Source: Lysobacterales bacterium PRO7 (GTDB lineage: Bacteria > Pseudomonadota > Gammaproteobacteria > Xanthomonadales > Rhodanobacteraceae). From it: 64,000 nucleotides of DNA. Below, piece after piece: positions 30,112 to 46,926 of the stretch. The stretch covers positions 1-64,000 of the forward strand of contig QWHH01000016.1 of the NCBI GenBank assembly GCA_021404785.1. Direction: 5' to 3'. Both the position numbers and the translations under genes were made by a program. Under the pieces are notes generated by a model. That model was not told where the DNA came from and made no database searches. It was given only the letters and a program-made list of their open reading frames with translations. Numbering within the stretch: position 1 is the stretch's first letter; every line of letters starts with the position of its first letter.

Positions 30112-31519
30112 TCTCGGGCACGCGCGCGTCGCGGTCTGGGGCTACGGACGCGAGGGTCGCGCAGCGCTGGCGGTGTTGCGCAGGCGCTTTCCGCAAAAAG
30201 CATTGACGCTGTTTTGTAGCGATGAAGAGGCCCAGTCTTTTGCTCGTCATCCCAGCGAAGGCTGGGATCCAGCTCTTCGCCACCCAAGACAAGGACTGGA
30301 TTCCGGCTTCCGCCGGAATGACGAGCTTTGTGTGATCACTCCACCTCCGAGCGTCGATGTGCTCAAGCGCTTCGACATCGTCATCAAATCCCCCGGCATC
30401 AGTCCCTACAAATCGCCGGTGCCGGACGCGATGGCGGCGGGCGTGAAATTCACTTCCGGCACGGCGCTGTGGTTTGCGGAGAATCCCACCGCGCGCGTCA
30501 TTGGCGTCACCGGCACCAAGGGCAAGAGCACCACCAGCGCGATGATTGCGCATCTCGCGCGCGGATTGGACGTGCGCACGGCACTGGCCGGAAACATCGG
30601 CATGCCGTTGCTGGATTTGCTCGGGCAGGAAGCGGCTTTGTGGGTGGTCGAGTTGTCGAGTTTCCAGACCGGCGATGCGGGGCCGCTCGATGTTGGCGTG
30701 ATCACGAACCTGTACGAGGAACATCTCGACTGGCATGGCACGCGCGAGCGTTACGCGGCGGACAAGCTCAAGATCGTCGATGTTGCGCGCACGCTTGTCG
30801 TGAACGCCGAGCAGCCAGAACTGCTCGCACGCACGGCGGCACACACGCACCGCGCGACCTTTGGCGACGCTGCCGGCTGGCATATTCGTGATGGTGCAAT
30901 CTGGCGTGGCAATGAGCCGGTTCTGCCGCTGGTACAGATTCCGCTATCTGGCGAGCACAATGCGAGCAATGTCTGCGCCGCGCTGGCGGCGATTGAATGT
31001 GCGGGTCTCGATTCCTTCGCTGCTGCCAGATACGTCGCCAGCTTCATACCCTTGCCGCATCGGCTGCAATCGCTGGGTATGCGCGACGGTATCGAATACA
31101 TCAACGACAGCATTTCGACCACGCCGTATGCGACGGTCGAGGCGCTGCGCAGTCTCGATGGTCGCGCCGTCAGCGTGATTGTCGGCGGTTTCGATCGGGG
31201 CGTGGACTGGAGCGGATTCGTCAAATATGTCGCCGCGCATCCGCCGCACACGATCATCGCGACAGGTGCGAACGGCGCGCGCATCGCCGAGTCCTTGGGC
31301 GGCGTGCGTGGATTCGAATTGACGCAAGCGGCAACAATGGCCGAGGCCGTGTCGCGCGCACGCGCGCAGGCGCCCGCGGGAAGCGTCATCCTGCTTTCAC
31401 CCGGCGCGCCGAGTTTCGATCAATTCAGGGACTACGCCGAGCGCGGCCGTGAGTTCGTGCGTCTGGCCGGATTCGATCCGGCGGCAATGGCACAAATCGA
31501 AGGCCTGGGAATCGCATGA
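30098..31519 (+). CDS. murD2: UDP-N-acetylmuramoyl-L-alanine--L-glutamate ligase
   Basis: 473 residues from ATG 30098 (ATG 30104 is also possible). It is a Mur ligase: the ATP loop GVTGTKGKSTT is near residues 135-146, and NLYEEHLDWHG, NDSISTTPYATVEAL and the C-terminal domain follow. With MurL it forms the alternative path to D-Glu in peptidoglycan: MurD2 adds L-Glu and MurL inverts it. Codons 49-76 are an in-frame palindromic repeat inserted in the N-terminal domain; the rest of the protein looks intact. Confidence 0.92.
   Translation: MRMADLGHARVAVWGYGREGRAALAVLRRRFPQKALTLFCSDEEAQSFARHPSEGWDPALRHPRQGLDSGFRRNDELCVITPPPSVDVLKRFDIVIKSPGISPYKSPVPDAMAAGVKFTSGTALWFAENPTARVIGVTGTKGKSTTSAMIAHLARGLDVRTALAGNIGMPLLDLLGQEAALWVVELSSFQTGDAGPLDVGVITNLYEEHLDWHGTRERYAADKLKIVDVARTLVVNAEQPELLARTAAHTHRATFGDAAGWHIRDGAIWRGNEPVLPLVQIPLSGEHNASNVCAALAAIECAGLDSFAAARYVASFIPLPHRLQSLGMRDGIEYINDSISTTPYATVEALRSLDGRAVSVIVGGFDRGVDWSGFVKYVAAHPPHTIIATGANGARIAESLGGVRGFELTQAATMAEAVSRARAQAPAGSVILLSPGAPSFDQFRDYAERGREFVRLAGFDPAAMAQIEGLGIA
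30242..30325 (+). repeat. 84-bp palindromic repeat inserted in frame in murD2
   Basis: The ends are near-perfect inverted repeats: GCTCGTCAT at 30242-30250 and ATGACGAGC at 30317-30325, with further matches inward to about 30 bases. The length is 28 codons with no stop, coding for HPSEGWDP...GFRRNDE. This is the common GTCATCCC...GGGATGAC type of dispersed repeat of proteobacteria. It resembles the in-frame palindromic elements described in Rickettsia genes. Confidence 0.85.
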
Positions 31520-32670: not shown

Positions 32671-33117
32671 TCAATCTTCCTTGTACTTGTCGTGGCAATC
32701 CTTGCAGGCCTGCGCGGTTTTCTTGAACTGTGCCTTCATCGCCGCTTCGTCGCCGGTGTGCGCGACGTCGGCCAGCGCCTTGGTCTGATCGACGAGATTC
32801 GAATCCTTGGACTTGAAATCATCGAAATTCGTCCAGATGCCGGGCTTGGCCTCGGTCTTTGCGCCCTTGTCCGAACCCGGGGCGAAGCCTTCCAGCACCT
32901 GTGGCGCGAGGCTGGCGAGACGGTCGGCGCGCATCGCGAATTCCTTCGCGTCCCAAGTGGTCTTGCCCTTCACCATTGCGCTGAGCGCGCCGAAATTCCA
33001 GCCGATCAGGGTCATCGCCGATTGGCGATAGTGGATGACTTGTTCGGGCTTGTGCTGGGCGAGGGCCGGCACCGCAATGGTGGCAAGTATCGCGGTGGCG
33101 AGGAAAGCGGATTTCAT
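32671..33117 (-). CDS. Cytochrome c', class II (secreted)
   Basis: 148 residues with a signal peptide (MKSAFLATAILATIAVPALAQ). The four-helix bundle ends in a CxxCH heme motif at C138, C141, H142 (CKDCHDKYKED), as in class II cytochromes c. These bind heme in the periplasm and are linked to nitric oxide binding or electron transfer. ATG 33117 has GGAG eight bases upstream. It is divergent from the dienelactone hydrolase gene, with a 105-base gap between them. Confidence 0.93.
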   Translation of the reverse strand: MKSAFLATAILATIAVPALAQHKPEQVIHYRQSAMTLIGWNFGALSAMVKGKTTWDAKEFAMRADRLASLAPQVLEGFAPGSDKGAKTEAKPGIWTNFDDFKSKDSNLVDQTKALADVAHTGDEAAMKAQFKKTAQACKDCHDKYKED

Positions 33118-33222
33118 GCTCGAATCTCCGAGGAAGGATTGCCAAAGTGTAGCGCAGCCGGGAATGACCCGGGCGTGGTGCGGCAGTATGATCGGTTTCC
33201 CATTTCCGGCGGAGGGTTGGTC

Positions 33223-34014
33223 ATGAAGCGTTGGCTGGCGGCGTGTGCGGTGGCAGGACTTGGCATCGGTTCGGCGCAGGCGGCGATGGTCGCGCGCAAC
33301 ATCGACTACACGGTCGATGGCGCGAAGATGCAAAGCGTGCTGGTCTACGACGACGCGGTGAAAACGCCGCGTCCGGGCCTGGTGATGGCGCCGGACTGGT
33401 ACGGCATGAATCCGGACCAGATTGCTCTGGCGAAACAGATCGCCGGCAAGGATTACGTGATCCTCGTCGCTGACATGTATGGCACGAAGGTACGTCCGAA
33501 GAATGCCGACGAGGCGGGCAAGGCGTCCGGCAACATGTACAAGCATCGCGACGAGTTGCGCGCGCGCGTCAAGGCGGCGCTGGCGCAGCTTGTCGCGCAA
33601 CAAGGCAAGGCGCCGCTGGATGGCAAGCACTGGGGTGCGATCGGATTTTGTTTTGGCGGCGCGGTCGCGCTGGATCTGGCGCGCAGCGGCGCCGACATCG
33701 CCGGCACCGCGACGTTCCACGGCAATCTTTCCACCGACGACCCGGCTGCGGCAAAAAACATAAAGGGCATGGTGCTGGCGATGAACGGCGCCGACGACAG
33801 CTTCACGCCGGAATCGGAAATCGTCTCGTTCGAAAAGGAGATGCGCGACGCTGGCGTGGACTGGCAATTCGTCAACTACGGCGGCGCCGTGCACTGCTTC
33901 GCGATCCCGACCGCAGACGGTTCGATGAAAGGCTGCAAATACGACGCGAAGGTCGCGCATCGCGCGTTTGCGTTGATGCATAGTTTTTTTGCGGAAGCTT
34001 TTGCACAGAAGTAA
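33223..34014 (+). CDS. Secreted dienelactone hydrolase-family protein
   Basis: 263 residues with a signal peptide (about 1-20, ending AQA). It has an alpha/beta-hydrolase fold with cysteine nucleophile C143 (GFCFGG), an acidic residue near D191 and H224 (GAVHCF), the arrangement of dienelactone hydrolase. The substrate is not predictable. GGAGGG lies before ATG 33223. A convergent 109-bp repeat separates it from the next gene cluster. Confidence 0.9.
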   Translation: MKRWLAACAVAGLGIGSAQAAMVARNIDYTVDGAKMQSVLVYDDAVKTPRPGLVMAPDWYGMNPDQIALAKQIAGKDYVILVADMYGTKVRPKNADEAGKASGNMYKHRDELRARVKAALAQLVAQQGKAPLDGKHWGAIGFCFGGAVALDLARSGADIAGTATFHGNLSTDDPAAAKNIKGMVLAMNGADDSFTPESEIVSFEKEMRDAGVDWQFVNYGGAVHCFAIPTADGSMKGCKYDAKVAHRAFALMHSFFAEAFAQK

Positions 34015-34044
34015 CCCTGTTGCGCTGAGAGACCGCTTTAGCCC

Positions 34045-34153
34045 TCTCTCCCGCTTGCGGGAGAGGGTTGGGGTGAGGGGAAGATTTGGAAAGATGCTTC
34101 GATTTTCCCCTCACCCGCGCCTTCGGCGCGACCTCTCCCGCAGGCGGGAGAGG
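34045..34153. repeat. Nested palindromic intergenic repeat
   Basis: Three hairpins lie in 109 bases. CTCTCCCGC (34046-34054) pairs with GCGGGAGAG (34057-34065); CGCGCC (34116-34121) with GGCGCG (34125-34130); CCTCTCCCGC (34132-34141) with GCGGGAGAGG (34144-34153). Outer arms GGGTGAGGGGAA (34071-34082) and TTCCCCTCACCC (34105-34116) match exactly. It sits between two convergent genes and may act as a two-way terminator. Repeats of this kind are scattered through many proteobacterial genomes. Confidence 0.85.
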
Positions 34154-34179
34154 TGAGAATATCTAACGTCGGGAATTCC

Positions 34180-35076
34180 TTACTTCGCCTTGAAGCGCAC
34201 CTGCACGCGCTGACCGACGCGCAGTTCGTCGCTGTCGAGCGTAAGGATGCAGATCACGTCGCGCGTGTCCGATGCTTCCTGCGGATCCTCGGTAAGCGTA
34301 CTCGGCCCGAACACGTCGCCGATGCGCGTCACCGTGGCGGAATAAGCCTTGTCGGCGCCATCCTGGGTGACGACCTCGGCGCGCATGCCGACATGAACCT
34401 TGCCGAGGAAGGCTTCGTTCAATTCGGCGCGCACGATGCGTGGCGCGTCGGGCAGCAAGGTGAAAAGCGCGGTTCCGGATTGCGCCGACACGACATCGCC
34501 CGGATGCGCGTTGCGCGCGACCACGCGCCCATTCACCGGCGCGCGGATGGTGAGCACGGCGACTTCATGTTGCGCCTGCTTCAGGTGCGCGCGCGCGGCT
34601 TCGACGGCCGCATCGGCCTCGCCGAGCTGTGCATTCGCCTCGGCTAGCGCCTGCTGCGCATCATCGGCGGATTGCTCCGTCGCGGCGCCGGCCTTGGCAG
34701 CCTCCACCGCACGCTCGGCGCGAGGCTTGAGTCCGGTTGCCTGGGTGCGCAAAGCGGCGGCGCGCGCGGTCGCCTGATCCAGTTGCGCCTTGGCGATCCC
34801 GGCGGATAGTTCCGCCTGGCGTGATTCGAGCTGGGCGAGCACGTCGCCGGCCTTAACGTCGGTGGCCGGCTCGCCGTGCAACTGCGCGATGACGCCGTCG
34901 CGCGGAGTGGCGATTCGGATCAATCCGCCCTGCACGTCGACCTGGCCGCGTGCCATGGCCGTGAACGCAGGCGTGGCCGGCGCGTCGGCGGTTTGTGCGT
35001 CCTTGTGCGAACACGCGACGAGCATGGCACTGGCAGCGAATGCAAGAATCGCGCGGTAGGCGGGATGGCGTTTCAT
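34180..35076 (-). CDS. Periplasmic adaptor protein, HlyD/DevB-like lipoprotein
   Basis: 298 residues with a lipobox (LVAC, C22). The coiled-coil region (about 85-175, rich in Ala/Gln) and the flanking lipoyl halves are typical of membrane-fusion proteins that join an inner-membrane pump to an outer-membrane channel. It is the last gene of the cluster and its start overlaps the ABC ATPase stop (ATGA), so it most likely serves the ABC exporter. Confidence 0.88.
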   Translation of the reverse strand: MKRHPAYRAILAFAASAMLVACSHKDAQTADAPATPAFTAMARGQVDVQGGLIRIATPRDGVIAQLHGEPATDVKAGDVLAQLESRQAELSAGIAKAQLDQATARAAALRTQATGLKPRAERAVEAAKAGAATEQSADDAQQALAEANAQLGEADAAVEAARAHLKQAQHEVAVLTIRAPVNGRVVARNAHPGDVVSAQSGTALFTLLPDAPRIVRAELNEAFLGKVHVGMRAEVVTQDGADKAYSATVTRIGDVFGPSTLTEDPQEASDTRDVICILTLDSDELRVGQRVQVRFKAK

Positions 35077-35840
35077 GCAGCGGATTCCGGTTGGGCGGCA
35101 TCCACCGAAGCGGTGCCGTTGCGTAGTCTATCCGATCGTGCCGACTCGGATTGGACGATGTCGGACAGGATCAGGCCGTCCTGGATGGTGATGATGCGGT
35201 CGGCGCTGGCGGCAAGGCGATGGTCGTGGCTGACGCAGACCACGGTGGTGCCAAACGTTCGCGCAATGCGGTGCAGCGAGTCGATCACGATCTTGCCGTT
35301 GACACTGTCCAGCGCGCTGGTCGGCTCGTCGGCGAACAGCAACTGCGGTTTCTTGGCCAGCGCGCGCGCGATCGCCACGCGCTGCTTTTCGCCGCCGGAC
35401 ATCTCCAGCGGACGCAGGTGCACGCGTGAGCCAAGTCCCACTTCTTCAAGTGCCGCCAACGCGCGGTTTTGCGCGCTGCGTTTGTCCAGTCCAAGGTAGC
35501 CCAGCGGCAACATCACCTGTTCGACCGCGCTCAACGCGGGAAACAGATTGAAGCCCTGGAACACGAATCCGGTGTGTTGCAGGCGGAAGCGTTCGAGTTC
35601 CGTGCGCGACAATTTCCACAATTCTTCGCCGAGCGCGAACACGCGGCCGCGATCCGGGCGCAGCAGACCGGACAAGATCGCGAGCAGCGTGCTCTTGCCG
35701 GAACCCGACGGCCCGAGTACGAGCGCCAGTTCGCGTTCTTCCAGCGCGATCGACAGGCCATCGAGCACGGACGTGCCGATCTTGCCCGTGGTGTAGGCCT
35801 TGGCGATGTCGTCGGCGGCGAGGGCGTGAGTCGTGGCCAT
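35073..35840 (-). CDS. ABC transporter ATP-binding protein (MacB/DevA-like)
   Basis: 255 residues. Walker A GPSGSGKST (43-51), Q-loop in FVFQGFNLF, signature MSGGEKQR (147-154), Walker B LLFADEP (167-173) and H205 are all present. The FQGFNLF and lack of a fused membrane domain match LolD/DevA-type exporters. ATG 35840 is used; the upstream reading overlaps the permease end and is rejected. It follows the permease gene by four bases. Confidence 0.94.
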   Translation of the reverse strand: MATTHALAADDIAKAYTTGKIGTSVLDGLSIALEERELALVLGPSGSGKSTLLAILSGLLRPDRGRVFALGEELWKLSRTELERFRLQHTGFVFQGFNLFPALSAVEQVMLPLGYLGLDKRSAQNRALAALEEVGLGSRVHLRPLEMSGGEKQRVAIARALAKKPQLLFADEPTSALDSVNGKIVIDSLHRIARTFGTTVVCVSHDHRLAASADRIITIQDGLILSDIVQSESARSDRLRNGTASVDAAQPESAA

Positions 35841-35844
35841 CGGA

Positions 35845-36984
35845 TTAACGCAGCAGGTTGGCCGGTTCCAGGTGCGCGATCGTGCGCACCGCCATCGCGC
35901 CGGAAACCAGCGCAATCGTCAAAACGAGAATGCCGCAGCCGATCGCGGCAGTGGCATCGAATGCGACCGGGACGTTCTGGCTGTGTGCCAGCAGCATCAA
36001 CGCGGCGCTGACCACGGCGCCGGCGACGATGCCGAAACCGCCGACGATCAGGGCCTGCTCCAGCACGACGCGGCGCAACGCGCCGTGGCCGGCGCCGAGC
36101 GCGTTGAGCATTGCGTATTCGCGCACGTGGCTGGCCACCGCCGCCATCAGGGTCTGGCTGGTGATGACGGTGCCGACGAGAAAGACGATGAAGGTGAAGA
36201 ACACGAAACCCAGGCCTGCGCCGGTTTCGAACATCCAGTAGTTCGCCGCGGTGTGCGCGAACTCGGCTTTGGTCCACACCGTGAAACGGCGTTGCGGCCA
36301 GGCCTTCTCGATGCGGTCACGCACCGTGTCCGCGTTCGCGCCGGGCTTGAGCTTGGCGACGTAGTACGCGACGCGATCGGTCATGGTCGGGTCGCTGTTC
36401 AGGCGCCGCGCGGTGGAAATCGAGGTCACGATGTTGACGCCGCCGAGCGCGCGCAAGCCGTTGCAGGCAGCGACGATTTTCACGTGGTGTCCGTTCAACG
36501 TGGCGCTGCCGCCGATCGCAAGTCCCAGCTTGGGCAGATCGGCGGCGTCGACGATGACGCTGTCGGGCTCGAGCAGCGACGCCCGCGTCGCCGGCGGAAT
36601 GGCCTGGGTGAACATCAGGCCATCCGGCGACGGATCGATGCCGGAAACAAACACCGACAGACTGCCGTGACTGGCCGGGCCGCGCCAGTCGCCGTCGATC
36701 CAGTAGAACGGTTCCACGCGCGTCACCGCCGCATCCATGCGCAGCGCCATTTCGGTGTCGCGAGGAATCGGCCGGCCGAGTTCGATCGTCTGCGTGCCCG
36801 GATAACCGGCCCACAGGTCGGCCGACGACTTGCTGACATACACGCTGGCGCTGTCGAAGATGCCGAACATCAGCGCCGCCTGCATCAGCAGCAGCAGGCC
36901 CGAGAACGCGACCGCGAGCGCGGCCGGCAGGAACTTGCGCCATTCGTAGAACAGGGTCTTGCGGGCGAGCGCGACGACGCTCAT
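35845..36984 (-). CDS. ABC transporter permease, FtsX/DevC-like
   Basis: 379 residues: an N-terminal helix (about 18-40), a large periplasmic domain, then three C-terminal helices containing ITSQTLMAAVASHVREYAMLNALGAGHG. The opening TLFYEWRKFLPAALAVAF resembles DevC-family exporters. Such permeases push substrates through a periplasmic adaptor and outer-membrane channel instead of across a simple channel. ATG 36984 overlaps the outer-membrane channel stop by four bases. The substrate is unknown. Confidence 0.87.
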   Translation of the reverse strand: MSVVALARKTLFYEWRKFLPAALAVAFSGLLLLMQAALMFGIFDSASVYVSKSSADLWAGYPGTQTIELGRPIPRDTEMALRMDAAVTRVEPFYWIDGDWRGPASHGSLSVFVSGIDPSPDGLMFTQAIPPATRASLLEPDSVIVDAADLPKLGLAIGGSATLNGHHVKIVAACNGLRALGGVNIVTSISTARRLNSDPTMTDRVAYYVAKLKPGANADTVRDRIEKAWPQRRFTVWTKAEFAHTAANYWMFETGAGLGFVFFTFIVFLVGTVITSQTLMAAVASHVREYAMLNALGAGHGALRRVVLEQALIVGGFGIVAGAVVSAALMLLAHSQNVPVAFDATAAIGCGILVLTIALVSGAMAVRTIAHLEPANLLR

Positions 36985-38366
36985 TGCATGACCAGCGGGG
37001 GCAGGGCGCCGCCGAGGGACTTGTACACGGCGATGAAGGCAATCGCGGCATCGCGCTGCGCGACCGATGCCTGCAATTGCGCCTGTGCCTGGGCTATGGA
37101 CGACTGCACGTCGTCGGATTTGTCGGCAAGACCGATGTGCTGCAACTTGTCCGCGCGCGCCTTCGCGTCGTTGGCTAACGCCAGTTGCGCATGCGCGGCA
37201 GCCGCGCGCGCGTGGTCGCGTTGCCATTGAGCGAGCGCACTTTCGGCCTCGGCCACGCCTTCGAGCACGGCCTGGCGATAGCCGAGCACGGCGGCCTGCA
37301 ACTGTGCATCGCGCGCGGTCACGGTGTCGCGGCGCGCGCCCCAGTCGAACAGCGGAATATCGATGATCGGGCCGGCCGAGGGAACGGCCTTGTTCGGATG
37401 GTCCAGGTCGCCGTTCACGCGCGTGGCCGAGATCAGGGTGCCGCCGAGGCCGAGCTTGGGCCACAGGTCGGCGCGCGCGATGCCCAGTTCGCCAGTCGCG
37501 TTCAGTACTTCAAGTTCGGCGACGCGGATTTCGGGCCGCGTGCGCAGCAGGTCGGCTGGCGCTTGCGTGAATTGCACGTCGCGCAAACTCGGCTGCGGAC
37601 CCGGCGCCTGGAGACTGGCATCGGGTTGCGCTTGCGCCAGCAGCACATCCAGCGCCTGCTGCGCCTGCGCGATCGCCGCGGCGGGCTCGGCGGCATCGGC
37701 TTGCGCCTGCACCAGTTCGCCCGCGGCCTTGTCAACGTCGTCGCGCGATGCCAACTTCAGGCGCAGGCGCACCTGGGTCAATTCCAGGACCTGTTCGCGC
37801 AGCGCGACGATGCGATCGAACTGGGCGGCACGCGTTTGCGCGGCGCGCAGATCGACATAGTTGCGCGCGACTTCCGCGGTGATGCTCACGCGCGCGGCGG
37901 AAATCTGCGTCGCGGCCGTTTGTGCGTCGGCGGCGGCGACGCGCGCGGTACCGGCGCCGCGGCCGAACAACGGCAGTTCCCACAGCGCATCGAATCCGAC
38001 TTCGTAATAACTGGTGGTTGCGGCGGGATCGGGTTGCGAGAACGTGCGGAAGCTCAACTGCGGCGCGAATTGCGTGCCGGCCAGGTGTTCGCGCGCGCGC
38101 GCCGCGCGCATGCGCAGTTGCGCCTGCTGCAAGGTCAGGTTCTGCGCCAGCGCGCGCTGGATAAGCGCGTCGAGCTGGGCATCGTCGAACGCCTTCCACC
38201 ACGAATCCAGGTTCGGTTGCGGACCGAGCTTTGCCGATTCCGGTGGCGCGTTGTGCCAATGCGCGGGCAGGTCGGCGTGCAGGTCGGGCAGCGGCGTACT
38301 CACCGCGCACGCTCCCAGCAGGGAACAAGCCGCCGCGGCGAGCAGGATCCTGGTGCGCGCGATCAT
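36981..38366 (-). CDS. Outer-membrane efflux lipoprotein, NodT family
   Basis: 461 residues with a lipobox (LLGAC, C20) and two OEP repeats rich in coiled-coil Ala/Gln heptads. It would form a TolC-like trimer. The start ATG 38366 overlaps the RND pump stop, and the end overlaps the ABC permease start. It is the second of two channels in the cluster; its position between the RND and the ABC genes makes it the likely partner of either pump. Confidence 0.92.
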   Translation of the reverse strand: MIARTRILLAAAACSLLGACAVSTPLPDLHADLPAHWHNAPPESAKLGPQPNLDSWWKAFDDAQLDALIQRALAQNLTLQQAQLRMRAARAREHLAGTQFAPQLSFRTFSQPDPAATTSYYEVGFDALWELPLFGRGAGTARVAAADAQTAATQISAARVSITAEVARNYVDLRAAQTRAAQFDRIVALREQVLELTQVRLRLKLASRDDVDKAAGELVQAQADAAEPAAAIAQAQQALDVLLAQAQPDASLQAPGPQPSLRDVQFTQAPADLLRTRPEIRVAELEVLNATGELGIARADLWPKLGLGGTLISATRVNGDLDHPNKAVPSAGPIIDIPLFDWGARRDTVTARDAQLQAAVLGYRQAVLEGVAEAESALAQWQRDHARAAAAHAQLALANDAKARADKLQHIGLADKSDDVQSSIAQAQAQLQASVAQRDAAIAFIAVYKSLGGALPPLVMQ

Positions 38367-41300
38367 GCGCTGGCCTCGCGCGGCATGCGCGCCAGCAGCG
38401 CATAAACCGCCGGCATCAGGATCAGCACGATCGGCACCGCGGCGATCAAGCCGGCGACGATCGCGATCGCCAGTGGCTGCTGCATCGCGGCGCCAGTGCC
38501 GATGCCGAGCGCGAGCGGCGACAGCGCGAGGATGGCGATCAAGGACGTCATCAGGATCGGGCGCATGCGCATCGTGCCGGCTTCGATCAGGGCATGGCGA
38601 TCGAGCGCGCGCGAAAAATCGATTTCGGCAAAATAGAAGATCGCGATTTCGGTGACGATGCCCAGGATCATGGTCAGGCCCATAATCGAGGACAGGTCCA
38701 GTTCGGTGTTCGTCAGCCACAATCCGGCAAACACGCCGGCCAGCGAACAGAAAGTCGCAATCAGGATGCTCGCGACCACGGCGATGTTTTCGTACAGGAA
38801 CATGAGCAAGGTCACGATCAGCAGCAGCGCGCCGGCGAACACCAGCGCCATCGCGCGGAACGAATCCTGCTGCTGGCCGTACAGGCCGCCATATTCGACC
38901 TGCACGCCAACCGGCAATTTCATTTGCGCCACGCTGGCCTTCACGTCATTCATCGCCGACCCCAGATCCCGTCCTTCCAGCCGCGCCGTCACCGCCACCA
39001 TCGGCCGCTGGTCCTCGCGGTTGGCCTCAGCCTGGCCTTGCGCGATCGAAATATCCGCCACCCGACCCAGCGGCACCACATGGCCATCCGCCGCGCGCAA
39101 CGGCAGCGCGCCGAGCTGGGCGATACGCGAGCGCAGGTCTGCTGGCGTCCACACGCGGATGCCGATCAGTTTTTCGCCAAGCCGGATCGTTCCGGCGAGG
39201 CTGCCGCCCAATTCGGTTTCGAGCTGGCGCGTCACGGCATCCGGATCGAGCCCGTCGATGGCCGCGCGCACACGATCCACGCGCACCTCGATGGCGTCGC
39301 CGGCGATCTTGACTCCGTCGAAAACCTCGACCACGCCGGGTATTTTAGCAATGGATGCGGCGACTTTGCCCGCCGTGTCGCGATCGACCGCCGGATCCTG
39401 GCCAAAAACCTTGACTTCGATGGGCTGCGGCGTGGCGACGAGATCGCCGATCAGGTCTTCCATCAATTGCGCGGTTTCAATGCGCAGGCCCGGCACCTGC
39501 GCGGCGATTTTCGCGCGCACCTCGCTCATGACGTCTTCAATGCCGCGCCGAGGCGGTGGTTTCAGGTGCACGAAGAAATCGCCCTCGTTCGCTTCGGTCA
39601 GGCCGCCGCCGAGCTGCAAGCCGGTGCGACGCGAGTAGTTGTCGACTTCCGGCGTGGCCTTGATGATGGCCTCGACTTGGCGCAACAGGCGATCGGTTTC
39701 GGTCAGTGATGTCCCCGGTGGACTGACGTAGTCGATCACGAAGCCGCCTTCGTCCATGTGCGGCATGAAACCCGTGCCCAGACGCCAGTAGCACAGGGCC
39801 ACGACGACGACGCATGCCGCGATGGCGGGCAGCGTCCAGCGCGGCTGCGCCAGCGCGCGATGCATGCGCCGCGCATAGTTTCGTTGCGCGCCTGCGATCC
39901 AGCGGTCGGCCTGTTCCATGCGCTGCGCATCGGCAACGCGGATCAGGCGTGCGGCGACCAAAGGCAGGGCGAGCGCGGCCAGCGCCCACGACACCACCAA
40001 TCCGGATGCCATGGTCAGCGCCAGCGCCTTGAAAAAGCCGCCGGCGACACCGCCGAGGAAGGCGAGCGGCGCGAACACGACGATGGTGGCGAGCGAGGAA
40101 CCGGTCAGCGGGCGCAGCATTTCCTGCGCGGCGCGCAATACGGTCGCGTCGTCCGCCGCACGCTGCGTGCCGGCGCGGCGCATGATGTGCTCGATCATCA
40201 CCACCGCATCGTCGACGATCAATCCGACCGCTGCGGCCATGCCGCCAAGCGTCATGATGTTGAAACTCATGCCGAACACGTCGAGCAGCAGCACGGTGAT
40301 CGCGATGACGATCGGCAAGACCAATGCGGTGATCAGGGTCACGCGCGTGCTGCGCAGGAACCCGAACAGGATCAGGGCCGCGAACAGGGCGCCGATGATG
40401 ATCGCGTCGCGCACGCTCGCGGCCGATGCGACGATCAGGTCGGATTGGTCGTAGTAGGTGCCGATGCGGATGTCAGCCGGAATCTGCGCGCGCAGCTCGG
40501 CCAGGCGCGCACGCACGTCCTGGACCAGCTTCACCGTGTTCGCGCCGCGCTGCTGGCGGATGTTGATCAGCACCGCGTCGCCGCCGTTCGCGGTCACACG
40601 CGTGAATTGCGGTTGCTGGCCGAGTTGCACGCTGCCGAGGTCGCCGACCGTCACCGGCTGGCCGTTCACCGTTTTGACCACGGTGTGACGGATGTCATCG
40701 ATGTCACGCAGGCGCGAGTCGGCGATGGTCAGGTACAGGCGATAGCGATCCTCGATGCGGCCGACCGCGGCGACTGTGTTGCCGGCATTGAGCGCCTGCA
40801 TCACGTCGGCGGCGGCGAGTCCGTAGGCGCGCAATCTGGCCGGGTCGAGCAAGACCTGAAACTCGGCGCTGCGTCCGCCGAGGATCTCGATCGCGGCAAC
40901 GCCGTGCACGGCGCTCAATGCGGGCGCGAGTTCCAGCGTGGCGAAATCGCGCAGGCCGACCGCGCCGCGCGTGGGTGTGGTCAGGGTGATGCCGAGCACG
41001 GGAAACACGGTCGGGTCACGGCGTTGCGCGCTGAACGACACGCCCGGCGGCAGCGAGGGAAGCGCACTGTTCATTGCCGCCTGGACTTGTAGCAGCGCCT
41101 GCGCCATGTTCGCGTTCCAGGGAAACGTGAGTGCGATTTCGGCCGAGCCGCGGCTCGTGGTCGAACGCACGCGCTCTACATCCGGGACACTGCGCAAGAT
41201 ACGCTCCAGCGGACGCGTGATTTCGGCTTGCATGCGCTCGATCGGACGGTCGCCTGCGTCGATCGCGATCACCACGCGCGGGAAGTCCATGTTCGGAAAC

Positions 41301-41404
41301 AGGCCGACCGGCAGGTTCCACGCCGCGGCAATGCCGCCGGCGGCGAGAATCAGGATCAGCAGCAGCAACGAACGCTGGTGCCGGGTCAGCCAGGCGCCGG
41401 TCAT
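38363..41404 (-). CDS. RND efflux pump permease
   Basis: 1013 residues with the twelve-helix RND plan and two large periplasmic loops. The helix-4 motif with two Asp residues is present (GLIVDDAVVMIEHI), showing a proton pathway. The GGMAAAVG and GPxTG-like segments fit the HAE/HME superfamily, but I cannot tell drugs from metals. ATG 41404 overlaps the adaptor stop (ATGA) and the end overlaps the channel start. It is the central component of this cluster. Confidence 0.94.
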   Translation of the reverse strand: MTGAWLTRHQRSLLLLILILAAGGIAAAWNLPVGLFPNMDFPRVVIAIDAGDRPIERMQAEITRPLERILRSVPDVERVRSTTSRGSAEIALTFPWNANMAQALLQVQAAMNSALPSLPPGVSFSAQRRDPTVFPVLGITLTTPTRGAVGLRDFATLELAPALSAVHGVAAIEILGGRSAEFQVLLDPARLRAYGLAAADVMQALNAGNTVAAVGRIEDRYRLYLTIADSRLRDIDDIRHTVVKTVNGQPVTVGDLGSVQLGQQPQFTRVTANGGDAVLINIRQQRGANTVKLVQDVRARLAELRAQIPADIRIGTYYDQSDLIVASAASVRDAIIIGALFAALILFGFLRSTRVTLITALVLPIVIAITVLLLDVFGMSFNIMTLGGMAAAVGLIVDDAVVMIEHIMRRAGTQRAADDATVLRAAQEMLRPLTGSSLATIVVFAPLAFLGGVAGGFFKALALTMASGLVVSWALAALALPLVAARLIRVADAQRMEQADRWIAGAQRNYARRMHRALAQPRWTLPAIAACVVVVALCYWRLGTGFMPHMDEGGFVIDYVSPPGTSLTETDRLLRQVEAIIKATPEVDNYSRRTGLQLGGGLTEANEGDFFVHLKPPPRRGIEDVMSEVRAKIAAQVPGLRIETAQLMEDLIGDLVATPQPIEVKVFGQDPAVDRDTAGKVAASIAKIPGVVEVFDGVKIAGDAIEVRVDRVRAAIDGLDPDAVTRQLETELGGSLAGTIRLGEKLIGIRVWTPADLRSRIAQLGALPLRAADGHVVPLGRVADISIAQGQAEANREDQRPMVAVTARLEGRDLGSAMNDVKASVAQMKLPVGVQVEYGGLYGQQQDSFRAMALVFAGALLLIVTLLMFLYENIAVVASILIATFCSLAGVFAGLWLTNTELDLSSIMGLTMILGIVTEIAIFYFAEIDFSRALDRHALIEAGTMRMRPILMTSLIAILALSPLALGIGTGAAMQQPLAIAIVAGLIAAVPIVLILMPAVYALLARMPREASA

Positions 41405-42456
41405 TGCGCCTTGACCGCCATGCCGTCCTCGAGTTCGTAGTTGCCGAGCACGACGACGGATTCGTTCGCGGCGAGGCCGGAACGGATTTCGACGCGCTCG
41501 CCGTCGTCCTCGCCCGCGTCGACCCATAGGCGCACGGCCTTGCCCGACTTGACCACGAACACGTAGGCTTTGTCGCCCTGCCAGAGCACGGCCGTGCGCG
41601 GCACGCCGAGTACGGGCTTGCCGGATCCGGTTTCGATCTGTGCGCTGACCGCGGAACCGGGCGTCAATCGCGCCGCGTCGACGGGTTTGGCAATGACCGG
41701 AATCAGACGCGTCTGCGCATCGATTTGACTGCCGACGCGTTCGACGCTGGCGGTGAATTGCGCCGCGCCATCCTGCAAAAGGTGGAATCTCACGGTCGCG
41801 CCGATGCGAACTTGCGCGATTGCCGACGGTTCGACACCCAGTTCCAGATGCAAGCCGGCGCTGTCGCCGATATGCGCGAATACCGTGTCGGTGGCGATGA
41901 CGTCGCCGGCGCGGGCGCTTATGTCGGCGACCACGCCATCATGATCGGCATGCAGGCTGCGCTCGCCCGTATTGCCGAAGCGCGCGCGCGCCGAAGCCTG
42001 CGCGGCGATGGCGTTGTGCGCGGCCTGTTCGGCGGCGGCCAGATCCGTATTCGTCGCCATATGCTGATCGAACAATTCGCGCGTGCGCGTCAGTTGCGAG
42101 CGCGCGAATTGCGCATCGTTGTCGGCGCGCTGCAATTCCAGCGCGGACGCAGCGGTCGGTTGCAACGCGATGATCGCGTCGCCCTTGCGCACGGCTTGTC
42201 CGGCGACGACATCGACTTTTTCGACGCGCGCCTGGTACGGCACCGAGATCGCGTGCAGCGCGTCCGCGGAATAGGCGAGCGTGCCGTATGCCGTCAGGTA
42301 CTGCTGCATCGGCGCCAGCGTTGCGGGCGCGACGTGTACGGTCGCGACCGTGGCGGCCTGGGGTGCGGTGTCGTCTGCGTCGGCGTGCACGGTTGGCGTG
42401 ATGGCGAGTGCCAATGCACAGGTCAGCGCGCACGCGATGCGATACGTCACTTCCAT
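41401..42456 (-). CDS. RND periplasmic adaptor (membrane-fusion) protein
   Basis: 351 residues with a signal peptide (about 1-25). Typical features are the lipoyl-like segment (VVAGQAVRKGDAIIALQP), the second half near residue 165 (HADHDGVVADISARAGDVI) and a C-terminal beta-barrel domain. It bridges the RND pump to a TolC-type channel. It overlaps the TolC-type gene upstream by ten bases and the pump gene downstream by four. Confidence 0.92.
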   Translation of the reverse strand: MEVTYRIACALTCALALAITPTVHADADDTAPQAATVATVHVAPATLAPMQQYLTAYGTLAYSADALHAISVPYQARVEKVDVVAGQAVRKGDAIIALQPTAASALELQRADNDAQFARSQLTRTRELFDQHMATNTDLAAAEQAAHNAIAAQASARARFGNTGERSLHADHDGVVADISARAGDVIATDTVFAHIGDSAGLHLELGVEPSAIAQVRIGATVRFHLLQDGAAQFTASVERVGSQIDAQTRLIPVIAKPVDAARLTPGSAVSAQIETGSGKPVLGVPRTAVLWQGDKAYVFVVKSGKAVRLWVDAGEDDGERVEIRSGLAANESVVVLGNYELEDGMAVKAQ

Positions 42457-43811
42457 ATCAATTCCCCCACATTGATCGCCAACGCAACCTCGCCTTCGGA
42501 CTGTGCTTGCGCCAGCGCGAGGCTGGCAATTTCCTTGTCGAGCAGTGTCGCGCGTGCGGTTTCAAAGGTTACCAGACCCACGTCGCGGCGTTCGGCGGCG
42601 TGCTCCAGCGGCTGCAACTCCGCGCGCAGTTGGTCGAGTTGCGTATCCAGCTCCTTGCGTTGCGCGGCGATCTGCTTGAGCGCTTCGACTTGCGCGGCGA
42701 TGGCCGATTGCGCATCGAACACGCGCGCGGCGTATTCGGCATGCAATTGTTCACGCGTCGCCTTGGCCACGGCGATGCCGCCGCGATTGCGGTTCCACAG
42801 CGGCAAGCTGAAACTCAGCGACGCGCCTTTCGTGTAGATCGGCGTGGTGTCGCGCGCGCGCGACAGCGTGATCGTGGGCAATGGATATTGCTGCAGGATC
42901 GCGCCGCGTACGGCAGCTTCCTGCGCTGCGTAACCGGCGCGCAGGGCGGCGAGGTCGAGGCGTTTGTCCAAGGCCTGCTTTTCCAGCGCGGCCACATCGA
43001 GCGTAGACGGATCATGCAGCGCGGCGGCATCGGCAAGCGGCAGGCGTGTGTCCGGCGTCACGCCGACGGCCTGGTTCAATTGCAATCGTGCGGCTTCGAC
43101 GTCGCGTGCGAGCTGGCCTTCGCGCGAACGCGCATCGAGTACGGCGATGCGGCGCAAGGCGAGATCGTCCAATCGCGCATTGTGCTGATCGACAGCGGCC
43201 TGCGTCAGCGCGAGAAGTTTTTCGGCGGCATCCGCGGCGCGCGCGGCGACTGCGTGCTGGCGTTCGAGGAATTGATAGCGCCGCGCAAGCAGGCGCACCT
43301 GATTTGCCGCCAGCCATTCCTGCCAGGCGATGTCGCGGCGCACCTGTTCGGCATTCGCCTGCGCGGCGGCGATGCGGCTATGGCGCGTGAGCAGCGCGGC
43401 AAGGTCGAGTCCTGCGCTGAGCGAGTACGCATTGACCGCGCCCGAACCATCCGGCCGGTCCGCACTGATGCCGATGCCCGGATCCGGCAACAGGCCGGCC
43501 GCGAACACCTGCGCGCCGGCGACCTGTTCTTGCGCGCGCAGCGCCCGCAAATCAGGGCTGGCGACGATCGCGATATCCGCCAGTTGCAGATCGTTCCACG
43601 GTCCGTCCGGCGGAATCGGCAGCGGCGACAGCAGTGGCTTGTTGCTGTCCTGCACGGTCTGCGCGAGCGTCGCCGCATCCGCAGGCGACGCTTCCTGCAA
43701 CGGACGCGGATGGTAGAGCGCGCAGCCACTCAGCAAAATTCCACACAGACAGGCCGCGACGGCGAAGTACGCGGCCCGCTGCTCATCGCTGGCGGATTCA
43801 GTGCTGTGCAT
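42447..43811 (-). CDS. Outer-membrane efflux protein, TolC/CusC-like lipoprotein
   Basis: 454 residues from ATG 43811, with lipobox LLSGC (C30). Two OEP repeats with strong Ala/Gln coiled coil are present. It overlaps the PepSY gene by 14 bases. A longer reading from 43913 lies entirely inside that gene and is rejected. It is the first of two outer-membrane channels in the cluster. Confidence 0.9.
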   Translation of the reverse strand: MHSTESASDEQRAAYFAVAACLCGILLSGCALYHPRPLQEASPADAATLAQTVQDSNKPLLSPLPIPPDGPWNDLQLADIAIVASPDLRALRAQEQVAGAQVFAAGLLPDPGIGISADRPDGSGAVNAYSLSAGLDLAALLTRHSRIAAAQANAEQVRRDIAWQEWLAANQVRLLARRYQFLERQHAVAARAADAAEKLLALTQAAVDQHNARLDDLALRRIAVLDARSREGQLARDVEAARLQLNQAVGVTPDTRLPLADAAALHDPSTLDVAALEKQALDKRLDLAALRAGYAAQEAAVRGAILQQYPLPTITLSRARDTTPIYTKGASLSFSLPLWNRNRGGIAVAKATREQLHAEYAARVFDAQSAIAAQVEALKQIAAQRKELDTQLDQLRAELQPLEHAAERRDVGLVTFETARATLLDKEIASLALAQAQSEGEVALAINVGELIWK

Positions 43812-44187
43812 TGCCTGGTTGCGAATCGTTTCTGGCTTCAATGGCTTCCTGCGCAGGCGTCTCGCTGGTGACGGAGAGTACCTTACCATTGCCCGCATCG
43901 ATTGCGACTTCATGCGTCGTCGTCGACCCGGCGATGGCGATGTCGAACGACCAGATCAGGCAGCCGTGCTCGGCTTCGAGTTCGGCGCTCTTGATGGACG
44001 GCTTGCCGGCTTGCTTGATCGATCGCAGTGCGGTTGCCTGCGCGGAATTCTTCGACACTTTGGCGAGTGCGGCGAGCTGCGCATAGGTGGCATGTGCGGG
44101 CGGAGCAATTGAGCACTTCAATCCATGGGCGCTGGTGGAAATGGCGAAGGTTGCGGCGACGAAACCGGCGAGCAGGGACATTTTCAT
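43798..44187 (-). CDS. Secreted PepSY-domain protein
   Basis: 129 residues with a signal peptide (about 1-20). A short cysteine-containing part (HGLKCSIAPPAH) is followed by a PepSY-like segment (SAELEAEHGCLIWSFDI and HEVAIDAGNGKVLSV). PepSY proteins often bind or shield peptides or proteases in the periplasm and are common next to metal or redox genes. Here it lies between a beta-propeller and an efflux channel; a sensor or accessory role is plausible but unproven. Confidence 0.82.
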   Translation of the reverse strand: MKMSLLAGFVAATFAISTSAHGLKCSIAPPAHATYAQLAALAKVSKNSAQATALRSIKQAGKPSIKSAELEAEHGCLIWSFDIAIAGSTTTHEVAIDAGNGKVLSVTSETPAQEAIEARNDSQPGNAQH

Positions 44188-44197
44188 TCGAAATTCC

Positions 44198-45226
44198 TCA
44201 GTGATTTGCGATGACAAGGATGGTGAAGCTGCCCTCGACGACGGCGGGCCACGGATGCGGATTCGCTTTCGTCGGCTCAGGGCGCGGGCCGAATTGCGCC
44301 GCGACGGTGAAGATGCGGTTGCCTTGCGTATCCAGCGCGAGGGTGCGTGCGCTCTTCTGCGTGGGCACATTCGCGATCACGCTGTAATGATCGGGAGCAT
44401 CCTCGTGCACGACGGTGAGCGTGCCGTCGTGACCATTCGTGCTGTAGACAAGCCCGCGCGTCGCATCGAAACCGGCGGCATCGGGCCCTTCGCCGATCGC
44501 GACGGTTGCGATGGACTTGCCCGACCGGGAATCCGTTACGGCCATATGCTTGTTCTGGCACACCGAGAACAAACGGTGATGTGCGATGTCGATGGCGAGA
44601 CCCGATGGCTCTTCGCAATCGGCGAGTTTCCACACGGCGGTCACCTTGTTCTTGGCCGTGTCGATGCGCGCCAGTTGGGCGGTGTCTTCGATGTTGACGT
44701 AGACGTTGCCCGCTTCGTCGCTCGCTGCGAACTCGGGTTTGCCCGGCAGTGCAATTTTTGCCAGCTGGTTGCCGGCGACCGGATCGACGACGCTGGCTTC
44801 GTTGCTGCGGCCGGCGAAGGCGAACAAATGGCCAGAGGCCGGATCGTAAATCAACGCATCCGGATTCTTGCCGTCGACTGGAATCGTGCGCAATACCTTT
44901 GACGTGGCCAGGTCGAACTCGGTCAACGTGTTCGCGTGGCCATTGCTGGTGAAGCCGCGGCCGAGCTTGGGTACCAGCGCGACGCCGTGTACGCCATCGG
45001 TGCCGGGAATCGTCGCTTCGATCTTGCCGTTGTCGGCATCGACCACGAGCACGCGGTCGGAGCGGCTGATGTACAGCCGGTGGCCGTCGGCGGAATACGT
45101 CAGATAATCCCAACCGCCGGACTGGCCGATGGCGTGGCGTTGCACGACAGCGTAATTCGGCGCGGACGCGAAGGCGGCGACAGGGACGATGAGGCCGAGC
45201 GCAAGCACGAGCGGGTTGCGATGCAC
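44198..45226 (-). CDS. Secreted YncE-like beta-propeller protein
   Basis: 342 residues from a GTG at 45226 with GGAG seven bases upstream. It has a signal peptide (MHRNPLVLALGLIVPVAAFA) and repeated blades (SADGHRLYISRSDRVLVVDADNG; DPASGHLFAFAG), a seven-bladed propeller like YncE. YncE in Escherichia coli is linked to iron/DNA; many relatives sit beside metal-efflux genes. It is the first gene of the cluster and is followed by the PepSY gene after 10 bases. Confidence 0.85.
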   Translation of the reverse strand: MHRNPLVLALGLIVPVAAFASAPNYAVVQRHAIGQSGGWDYLTYSADGHRLYISRSDRVLVVDADNGKIEATIPGTDGVHGVALVPKLGRGFTSNGHANTLTEFDLATSKVLRTIPVDGKNPDALIYDPASGHLFAFAGRSNEASVVDPVAGNQLAKIALPGKPEFAASDEAGNVYVNIEDTAQLARIDTAKNKVTAVWKLADCEEPSGLAIDIAHHRLFSVCQNKHMAVTDSRSGKSIATVAIGEGPDAAGFDATRGLVYSTNGHDGTLTVVHEDAPDHYSVIANVPTQKSARTLALDTQGNRIFTVAAQFGPRPEPTKANPHPWPAVVEGSFTILVIANH

Positions 45227-45303
45227 GGGGAACTCCGGGTTTTTTTGCTCTACGGGCGGCCAGTGTAGCCATCCCGCGTTACGGAATTCCAAAACCGCGC
45301 GGG

Positions 45304-46308
45304 TCAGTGATCGCGCTGCAGGGCGTAGTCGGCCAGCGCAGCCAGCGCGTCGCGCGCGGAGGAATGCGGCAAAGTGCACAATGCCGCTTTTGCCGCATTG
45401 GCGTAATCCTGCGCACGCGCGCTGGCGCGTGCCACCGCACCGGAATCGCGGATGGCGGCAAGAATCGTCTCGAGCGCGTCCAGCCCGCCGCTTTGGATGG
45501 CGTGGCGCAGGACTTGTGCGCGTTCCGGAGTCGCGCGTTCCAGCGCGTAAATCAGCGGCAAGGTGACTTTGCCTTCGGCGATGTCGTCGCCGATGTTCTT
45601 GCCGAGCGTGCCGGCGTCAGACACGTAATCGAGCACGTCGTCGGCGATCTGGAAGGCGAAACCCAGGTTCAAGCCGTAATCCGCGAGTGCTTCTTCCTGC
45701 GTTATCGGTAATCCGCCGAGCAGGCCGCCGAGGCGCGTGGCGGCCGCGAACAGCACCGCGGTCTTGCGCTCGATCACACGCAAATACGCGGCTTCATCCA
45801 CATCCGGATTGTGGATATTGAGCAGTTGCAGCACCTCGCCTTCGGCAATGCGGTTGGTGGTGTCGGCAAGGATGCGCATCACGCGCATGTCATTTGCCTC
45901 GACCATCATCTGGAACGCGCGCGAATATAAAAAATCGCCGACCAGCACGCTGGCCGCATTGCCCCACAGCGCGTTCGCGGTCTTGCGCCCGCGGCGCAGG
46001 TCGGACTCGTCGACGACGTCGTCGTGCAGAAGGGTTGCGGTGTGGATGAACTCGACCACCGCCGCGAGCAAGGTGTCGTGGTTGCCGCGATAGCCGGCGG
46101 CCTGCGCGGCGAGCAGCACCAACATCGGGCGCAGGCGCTTGCCGCCGGCGCCGACGATGTGCTCGGCGATCTGGTTGACCAGGACCACGTCGGACGCGAG
46201 CCGCGCGCGGATCAGCGCGTCGACTTGTCCCATGCCGGGCGCAGCCAACGCCTGCGCGTCGGCAAAGCGCGGGGGCGGCGAGCTCAGATCGGGCGAGGCA
46301 ATGACCAT
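45304..46308 (-). CDS. ispB: Octaprenyl diphosphate synthase-type prenyltransferase
   Basis: 334 residues. Both aspartate-rich motifs, DDVVD (96-100) and DDVLD (223-227), are present, and the FARM-region length fits a long-chain polyprenyl synthase. It makes the side chain of ubiquinone. The ATG at 46308 has no ribosome-binding site; a perfect TATAAT at 46317-46322 on the minus strand lies only eight bases ahead, so the mRNA may be leaderless. It stands alone between the efflux cluster and ssb. Confidence 0.93.
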   Translation of the reverse strand: MVIASPDLSSPPPRFADAQALAAPGMGQVDALIRARLASDVVLVNQIAEHIVGAGGKRLRPMLVLLAAQAAGYRGNHDTLLAAVVEFIHTATLLHDDVVDESDLRRGRKTANALWGNAASVLVGDFLYSRAFQMMVEANDMRVMRILADTTNRIAEGEVLQLLNIHNPDVDEAAYLRVIERKTAVLFAAATRLGGLLGGLPITQEEALADYGLNLGFAFQIADDVLDYVSDAGTLGKNIGDDIAEGKVTLPLIYALERATPERAQVLRHAIQSGGLDALETILAAIRDSGAVARASARAQDYANAAKAALCTLPHSSARDALAALADYALQRDH

Positions 46309-46316
46309 GAGACGCG

Positions 46317-46322
46317 ATTATA
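46317..46322 (-). promoter_or_regulatory. Perfect -10 box touching the ispB start
   Basis: TATAAT on the minus strand lies eight bases before the ispB ATG. Transcription would then begin 0-3 bases before the start codon, consistent with a leaderless message. No good -35 was found at 16-18 bases. Confidence 0.5.
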
Positions 46323-46392
46323 GCGGGCCGTAATCGGTGTTTTCCTACAATGCGCCACGACGCGTTCCGGCAGCGGCCGCGCGGTGCGCGCA

Positions 46393-46430
46393 TGTTATGC
46401 TTTCGGCCACGCGAAACGGCGCACATAACA
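46393..46430 (+). promoter_or_regulatory. Inverted repeat next to the ssb start
   Basis: TGTTATG (46393-46399) and CATAACA (46424-46430) are perfect complements, 24 bases apart. They flank the area before the ssb ribosome-binding site (AAGGTG) and could be an operator or a leader stem. No LexA-type box was recognised. Confidence 0.35.
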
Positions 46431-46440
46431 AGGTGAAGTC

Positions 46441-46926
46441 ATGGCACGCGGCATCAACAAAGTCATCCTCGTCGGCAATCTCGGCGGCGATCCGGAAACC
46501 CGCTACACGCCCAGCGGCACGGCGATCACCAGCATCCGCCTCGCCACCAGCGAATCGTGGAAGGACAAGCAGACCGGCGAAGCGCAGGAGCGCACCGAAT
46601 GGCATCGCGTGGATTTCTTCGGTCGCCTGGCCGAAATCGCCGGCGAATACCTGAAGAAGGGCCGCCAGGTCTACATCGAAGGCAAGCTGCGCACCGACGA
46701 ATACGAAAAGGACGGCGTCAAGCGCTGGTCGACCAAGATCATCGCCGATGAAATGCAGATGCTCGGCGGCAAGGAAGGCGGAGGTGGCGAAGGCGGCGGT
46801 TCCGGCAGCGGCTATGGCCGCGAACGCGGGCCCGCGCGCGGCCCGCAATCCGCGCCCGCGCGCAACGCTCCGGCTGCGCCAGCAGCTGGCGGCGACAATT
46901 TCGACGAGGATGAGATTCCGTTTTAG
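46441..46926 (+). CDS. ssb: Single-stranded DNA-binding protein
   Basis: 161 residues. The OB-fold (about 1-110, [19 protein letters not shown]) binds ssDNA as a tetramer. A glycine-rich linker follows and the tail ends DEDEIPF, the acidic tip that recruits replication and repair proteins. AAGGTG is the ribosome-binding site. It has its own terminator. Confidence 0.98.

Follow-up and report, generated by a model that had tools for sequence, protein, structure and literature searches.

The window analysed here is the first 64 kb of contig QWHH01000016.1 of Lysobacterales bacterium PRO7. It carries nine minus-strand genes (45226-34180) that encode two export pumps, one of the resistance-nodulation-division (RND) type and one of the ATP-binding cassette (ABC) type, together with a YncE-like beta-propeller protein and a small PepSY-like protein. 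We consider it fairly probable that the nine genes form one transcription unit uniting two independently conserved tripartite efflux modules, with the pumps working in parallel on a common toxicant. The operon is a real, selected composite efflux operon assembled from known kinds of component. Genes for RND and ABC exporters usually lie in separate places, and the initial annotation rightly called their presence in one operon unusual. Searches within this genome covered 2.8 Mb in 19 contigs.

The nine-gene operon and its conservation

All nine reading frames are intact. The genes, in the order of reading, and the features beside them are as follows.

44198-45226, minus: yncE, exported YncE-like beta-propeller repeat protein, 342 amino acids, GTG start (TIGR02276 repeat)
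43798-44187, minus: pepSY, small exported PepSY-like protein, 129 amino acids (sub-threshold PepSY match plus hhalign)
42447-43811, minus: omf1, outer-membrane channel 1, OEP family (OEP 69.7 bits, cut-off 22)
41401-42456, minus: mfp1, periplasmic adaptor 1, RND_mfp family (TIGR01730 161.8 bits, cut-off 94.9)
38363-41404, minus: rnd, RND permease, 1013 amino acids, outside the curated models of heavy-metal efflux (HME) and hydrophobe/amphiphile efflux (HAE) pumps (ACR_tran 716.7 bits)
36981-38366, minus: omf2, outer-membrane channel 2, NodT type (TIGR01845 210.2 bits, cut-off 210.05, with a query frame started upstream of the ATG at 38366)
35845-36984, minus: perm, ABC permease, FtsX/MacB type, DevC-like, 379 amino acids (FtsX 46.8 bits, cut-off 25.5; MacB_PCD 27.1 bits, cut-off 27)
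35073-35840, minus: atp, ABC ATPase, LolD/DevA-like, 255 amino acids (ABC_tran 109 bits)
34180-35076, minus: mfp2, periplasmic adaptor 2, HlyD/DevB-like, 298 amino acids (HlyD_3 64.7 bits, cut-off 22.2)
45262-45290, minus: conserved promoter-like element, 29 bases, at the same place upstream in relatives
34045-34153, no strand: two inverted-repeat copies (34132-34153 and 34045-34066), just past the last gene

Pfam cut-offs were passed by seven of the nine proteins, the exceptions being the YncE-like and PepSY-like proteins. By eye, the N-termini of channel 1 and adaptor 2 are lipobox-like, and the ATPase contains Walker A, signature and Walker B motifs. The domain matches and gene layout agree with the earlier description of two complete tripartite exporters with separate channels. 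The eight internal junctions are overlaps of 14, 10, 4, 4, 4 and 4 bases and gaps of 10 and 4 bases. The initial annotation had called eight of nine junctions tight; the tightness holds for all of them, but nine genes have only eight junctions.

The promoter-like element (pattern GGAAWTC-N2-TAAC-N9-CTASACT) ends 35 bases before the yncE start codon, inside the gap to the next same-strand upstream gene, a polyprenyl synthetase gene (45304-46308) 77 bases from the operon. The element is kept at the same position in four related loci (L004, L006 with one mismatch, L009 and L128) and is present in 5/5 loci that have the region before yncE. Locus L005, which lacks yncE and pepSY, has a copy with three mismatches before omf1. 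When 3.07 Mb of related loci were searched with up to three mismatches, the sole match other than the copies of these loci was in L054. Because the junctions are tight and the upstream element is conserved, the nine genes probably share one promoter, consistent with the single operon described earlier, and the element itself is probably this promoter. A sigma-70 scan of both strands of 33500-46500 found none (shuffled sequences averaged 1.6), which is a weak test in a GC-rich genome.

One more match of the pattern in this genome, with two mismatches, lies just before the operon of another RND pump (C12) that exceeds the HME cut-off. Regulation shared with this heavy-metal operon was considered and rejected. 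Upstream of the C12-type operon in L244-L246 the GGAATTC part is not retained and only the later part of the element (near TAAC and TGATACATT) persists. In 21 genomes, moreover, two-mismatch matches outside the window-type operon numbered 4, versus 4 for a reversed control pattern.

The gene order was looked for in other genomes and was found in close relatives, with losses. The closest relatives of the RND gene are from metagenome-assembled genomes, including Lysobacteraceae bacterium (88%) and Rudaea sp. (76%). The full nine-gene order stands on a single contig in the window, L004 (G014) and L009 (G006). L006 (G012) has the same order without pepSY only, and in L005 yncE and pepSY are gone and a kinase-regulator pair follows mfp2. 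The gene set is split across two contigs each in G007 and G010, and L002 and L003, cut by contig ends, match the order as far as they are covered. Against L004, dN/dS was 0.12-0.32 over the nine genes, with pepSY the least constrained; the highest value among close joined relatives was 0.47, for pepSY in L009. These results show that purifying selection acts on all nine genes.

The inverted-repeat pair past the last gene may mark the transcript end or else be an interspersed repeat; its copies were not called in the terminator scan. A stretch at about 30150-30300, within a plus-strand frame at 29972-31519, resembles by eye what we take to be a common interspersed repeat. Downstream of the operon lie a cytochrome c-prime gene (about 32671-33110, minus) and a dienelactone hydrolase gene (about 33200-34014, plus). 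No two-component kinase or regulator was found among the nine genes or the flanking genes tested, the farther flanking frames being judged by eye only.

Repeated joining of two separable modules

The RND and ABC modules stand head to tail in three places: the subclade of the window, L123 of genome G001, and L072. In L123 the order is omf1-mfp1-rnd-omf2-perm-atp-mfp2-yncE, with RND 46-47% identical. In L072, from a metagenome-assembled genome labelled Betaproteobacteria, the order PepSY-regulator-kinase precedes the same seven genes. Quick trees were made for a chosen set of 32 permeases and 43 of the RND proteins. The approximately unbiased test rejected one joined clade on the permease tree (p = 3.8e-6; 7e-4 without L072) and on the RND tree (p = 5e-4; 7e-56 without L072), and at least three state changes are needed on each tree. 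The joining of RND and ABC modules thus occurred at least three times. That the same two kinds of pump were joined more than once suggests that both serve one shared job.

Proximity of the two pumps was examined in 399 evenly sampled genomes of the order, with the RND pump called at E 1e-180 and the ABC pump at E 1e-90. The RND pump was present in 78 genomes, the ABC pump in 107, and both in 68. In 9 of these 68 (own genome included) the two lay within 20 kb, versus 0.65 expected for random placement in 4.2 Mb, a figure uncorrected for relatedness. Two of the nine cases come from genus g40.

Five further genomes of the genus (L150-L154), and others of the family, carry the ABC module (omf2-permease-ATPase-adaptor 2) away from RND. 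L155 has the ABC module on a contig that starts inside yncE just before it. A histidine kinase of a shared cluster lies within 2.5 kb in 7/21 stand-alone ABC loci (L152, L157, L159, L162, L164, L168 and L169). The order in L152 is a PepSY gene, whose product exceeds the Pfam cut-off at 35.4 bits, then a regulator, a kinase and the ABC genes.

By their labels, the loci that carry the RND module come from several proteobacterial classes and from a few other phyla. The neighbourhood of the module was counted in the 46 of 92 loci whose sequence extends about 5 kb to either side; the remaining 46 had flanks too short to be used. Within 5 kb of RND, a regulator and a kinase were both present in 37/46, PepSY in 16/46, the YncE family in 7/46 and an ABC permease in 4/46; none of these five neighbours was seen in L027, L032 and L033 (3/46). 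As a control, 40 arbitrary 10-kb stretches of relatives gave a regulator in 5, a kinase in 5, and PepSY, YncE or an ABC permease in 0. A search for RND of this clade at a threshold of E 4e-180 was positive in 23 of 61 genomes (own plus relatives). Twelve of the 23 have a yncE relative within 5 kb, six have yncE elsewhere only (G002, G011, G015, G028, G034, G036), and three have no yncE match (G005, G027, G032); G009 and G016 also have no match, and there the RND contig ends before its place. The RND gene of G031 is probably intact despite a reported inner TGA, as an open frame of 1010 amino acids carries the whole score.

Sister two-component systems for both pumps were considered as well and were not accepted. 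In L254 (G294) the order on one strand is regulator-kinase-omf1-mfp1-rnd, then regulator-kinase-omf2-perm-atp-mfp2, and the two pairs are not close to each other. The only hint came from G031, where the kinase beside an unlinked ABC module (L157) best matches, among the loci compared, the RND-linked kinase of that same genome (L112, 319 bits).

Other genes were also seen beside RND. Six loci (L011, L014, L032, L033, L045, L061) share an RND-flank gene cluster, whose member in L032 is a P-type cation ATPase. In L029 and L040 (Hydrogenovibrio/Thiomicrospira) RND is followed by a DUF347-cluster gene and then a different FtsX/MacB-type ABC set; Pfam was run on L029, and the DUF347 assignment comes from the member in L031.

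The pumps and the two periplasmic proteins

The window RND missed every listed cut-off of the NCBIfam RND models. It reached 492 bits against a cut-off of 701 for TIGR00914 (HME-RND), and 30 diverse clade members (A1) also stayed far from the HME cut-off (best E-value 9.9e-151). In an alignment of 88 clade members, AcrB D407/D408/K940/R971 correspond to D398/D399/E919/R946, all invariant, so that the HAE-1 drug relay reads D, D, E, R in 88/88. D609, D650 and D654 are invariant like E919, and AcrB and MdtB lack the acid at all four positions. In the HME pump C12 of this genome the first three correspond to Glu, Asp and Glu. The E919 position, in transmembrane helix (TM) 10, is Glu in the CusA-like pump C9 and Leu in C12; CusA itself was compared up to residue 929 only, and therefore TM10 was compared with the genome's own HME pumps.

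At CusA M573, M623 and M672, which we take to be the three-Met metal site, the 88 members have D558 (97%), E607 (64%) and D654 (100%). ZneA E610, D654 and D658 align with the invariant D609, D650 and D654, and ZneA E136 and D602 with P135 and G601, so that three of the five ZneA acids are matched and two are not. These ZneA acids are presumably zinc ligands; a literature search for ligand residues returned nothing on ZneA. The AlphaFold2 model of the RND protein (mean pLDDT 86) has CusA (3ne5) as its first Foldseek match in the PDB, with a TM-score of 0.92. AcrB chains among the 50 matches listed scored 0.86-0.91, and the fold comparison with CusA does not separate the families. MdtB is the second-best PDB match by sequence (300 bits). 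The mixed HME and HAE residue features, with the clade tree (basal support only 0.72), thus indicate a distinct RND clade. These residues favour a charged or metal substrate as a candidate.

The ABC permease passed the Pfam cut-offs of FtsX and, narrowly, of MacB_PCD, and an adaptor and a channel are adjacent, as for MacB-type pumps. The module stayed below the DevBCA cut-offs (TIGR01185 (devC) 113/290 bits, TIGR02982 192/296, TIGR02971 68/129). LolD and DevA are the best NCBIfam models for the ATPase, both below cut-off.

The PepSY-like protein alone gave 19.9 bits versus the PF03413 gathering threshold of 24. Its membership of the family comes from homology, with 99.2% in hhalign against 12 PepSY proteins from related loci (including that of L072, 41.4 bits). 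Cys 25 and Cys 76 form an extra pair, invariant in the 4/4 aligned subclade members. The PepSY proteins of L062, L076, L152 and L038 have acidic, partly His-containing C-terminal tails, which the window-type protein lacks. This genome has one other PepSY match only, a weak one. The L112 kinase found six kinase-core matches in it (up to 31% identity), and the L005 kinase found no match at E 1e-15, in a search without positive control. Therefore the PepSY protein may partner a different kinase or take part in export itself.

The YncE-like protein passed the TIGR02276 repeat model (47 versus 27.85 bits) and no Pfam cut-off, and it reached 50 of the 400 bits of the YncE equivalog NF052280. Its nearest solved structures are an S-layer propeller (1l0q) and YncE (3vgz), and a Sec signal was seen by eye. 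Periplasmic sensing or binding had been suggested earlier for the first two genes. The suggestion gains support for the second gene, since PepSY genes lie near RND in 16/46 loci, mostly with a kinase-regulator pair, and a Vibrio PepSY protein is described as regulating a sensor kinase (PMC12714742). The excerpts of that study report that binding of Vibrio cholerae DbfQ to its kinase switches the enzyme towards phosphatase activity, that outer-membrane damage has the opposite effect and activates the pathway, and that PepSY genes occur near such kinases more than 60-fold above chance (PMC12714742). Another PepSY protein, UipA, is said in a passage of a review to bind uranyl (PMC8963506). The literature search found no paper joining YncE, PepSY and RND efflux, nor PepSY, QseBC and efflux.

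Mechanism, alternatives and comparison with known systems

Like RND pumps, ABC pumps of the FtsX/MacB type pick up their substrate in the periplasm or from the membrane leaflet. Because of this, and because separate adaptors and channels serve the two pumps here, we infer that the two act in parallel. The first module (channel 1, adaptor 1 and RND) would be proton-driven and the second (channel 2, FtsX/MacB permease, ATPase and adaptor 2) ATP-driven. Each would capture toxicants of one common class, either in the periplasm or from the outer leaflet of the inner membrane, and expel them to the outside, the two drawing on different energy sources. The YncE-like propeller and the PepSY protein may provide a periplasmic binding or sensing step. 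The genes would be fused behind one promoter with no kinase-regulator pair adjoining, which leaves PepSY with no kinase next to it. A charged substrate is probable, the first guess being a divalent metal ion or a complex of such an ion.

A wider account is offered tentatively. The uncurated RND subfamily and the MacB-type ABC pump may be a recurrent pair of one PepSY/YncE-linked periplasmic stress programme directed at the same charged toxicant. In this genus the pair would have become a self-contained operon that dropped the two-component system and kept PepSY, possibly as a ligand carrier.

Several observations weigh against a shared job of the two pumps or a charged substrate. Five of the nine 20-kb cases belong to genus g18 and share flanking aminotransferase and HAD genes, and the proximity may therefore partly reflect one inherited neighbourhood. 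RND occurs without ABC in 10/78 genomes and ABC without RND in 39/107; therefore the pumps are not obligate partners. The shared-cluster kinase is missing within 2.5 kb in 14/21 stand-alone ABC loci, and the two kinase-regulator pairs of L254 are not close to each other. pepSY can be lost, as in L006, and so can yncE and pepSY together, as in L005. The RND pump lies below the HME cut-off, its TM4 carries the DD pair of drug pumps, and the genome has two other RND pumps (C9 and C12) over the HME cut-off.

The initial annotation named a toxic metal, heme or lipid as possible substrates. The residue patterns would best fit a cation or metal, but the HME cut-off is missed, and some neighbours in related loci (PMT_2 family, PAP2) point to envelope damage. 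An envelope-damaging amphiphile would be about as likely a substrate as a metal.

Two other kinds of explanation, each possible but somewhat doubtful, have to be weighed. The operon may serve envelope stress, with both pumps clearing amphiphiles, cationic peptides or misplaced lipids and PepSY and YncE taking part in a DbfQRS-like damage response. PepSY genes adjoin kinase-regulator pairs in related loci. A gene family of seven related loci lies directly 3' of RND in L077, L078, L120 and L122; its L078 member is a PMT_2 protein, which presumably resembles ArnT. The Sphingomonas locus L019 has a PAP2 gene after yncE. The binding of DbfQ to its kinase and the activation by outer-membrane damage, as excerpted (PMC12714742), fit this explanation, and part of another report links MacB/DevBCA pumps to drugs and glycolipids (PMC8277102). 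However, the window operon contains neither a PMT_2 nor a PAP2 gene, and the conserved porter residues of the RND pump are charged and nearer to metal than to drug pumps.

In the other explanation a new metal or cation RND subfamily drives the system, and the ABC pump clears that metal in complexed form, for instance with a siderophore-like ligand. Acids D558, E607 and D654 stand at the CusA Met positions, and D609, D650 and D654 align with ZneA E610, D654 and D658, which are presumably zinc ligands. A precedent is the ABC pump PvdRT-OpmQ and the RND pump MdtABC-OpmB, which share a periplasmic iron ligand, pyoverdine, according to excerpts of PMC10715066. On the other hand, the window RND (492/701 bits) and the 30 A1 members stay below TIGR00914, P135 and G601 stand opposite ZneA E136 and D602, and the metal site is a prediction from alignment.

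It is unlikely that the fusion arose by chance, bringing together in one lineage unrelated efflux operons with nothing but a promoter in common. Both modules do exist alone, and operons can join by drift. This is opposed by the at least three separate joinings, the excess proximity within 20 kb and the purifying selection on all genes. In addition, yncE relatives stand by RND without ABC (L112-L114, L124) and by ABC where no RND was seen (L155, with a contig starting inside yncE, and L158, at a distance of 1.9 kb). The two-stage export raised in the initial annotation, taken here as ABC moving the substrate from cytoplasm to periplasm and RND from periplasm to outside, would suit two pumps in one operon but is very improbable, as an FtsX/MacB-type permease presumably takes its substrate from the periplasm and neither pump depends on the other for an adaptor or a channel.

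Parallel action on a common toxicant is the favoured reading. The repeated assembly of an RND-ABC unit, at least three times over, suggests a substrate that requires both pumps. The operon also gives access to an RND subfamily that has no curated NCBIfam model and is present in many Proteobacteria and a few other phyla by their sequence labels. A PepSY protein without a neighbouring kinase raises the question whether such proteins act in export itself besides signalling.

Compared with the HME-RND systems (CusCBA, CzcCBA, ZneCAB), the window RND is likewise part of a tripartite pump, with a TM10 Glu (as in C9, but Leu in C12), the DE pair, acidic porter residues that match three of the five ZneA acids, and CusA as first structural match; a further likeness is that E. 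coli cusCFBA adjoins cusRS. It differs from them in scoring below TIGR00914, in having DD rather than D-A/G in TM4, in lacking the CusA methionine cluster and in being joined to an ABC pump. With the HAE drug pumps (AcrB, MdtBC) it shares the TM4 DD pair and the TM11 arginine. Unlike them, its clade has Glu for the TM10 lysine (88/88), misses their cut-offs and has porter residues that differ from those of AcrB and MdtB. The ABC module resembles MacAB-TolC and DevBCA-HgdD in its FtsX and MacB_PCD domains, separate ATPase, adaptor and outer-membrane channel, but it stays below the DevC, DevA and DevB cut-offs, has its channel gene within the operon and is fused to an RND operon.

The small exported PepSY protein is like that of DbfQRS/BqsRS as excerpted from PMC12714742, and related loci of both modules have PepSY near a kinase-regulator pair. 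PepSY within four genes of a kinase or regulator was found in related loci, not in the window operon or the flanking genes tested. The pumps PvdRT-OpmQ and MdtABC-OpmB of Pseudomonas putida are a similar case of ABC and RND tripartite pumps exporting one periplasmic substrate; in the excerpts of PMC10715066 they are treated as two separate systems, unlike the single operon of the window.

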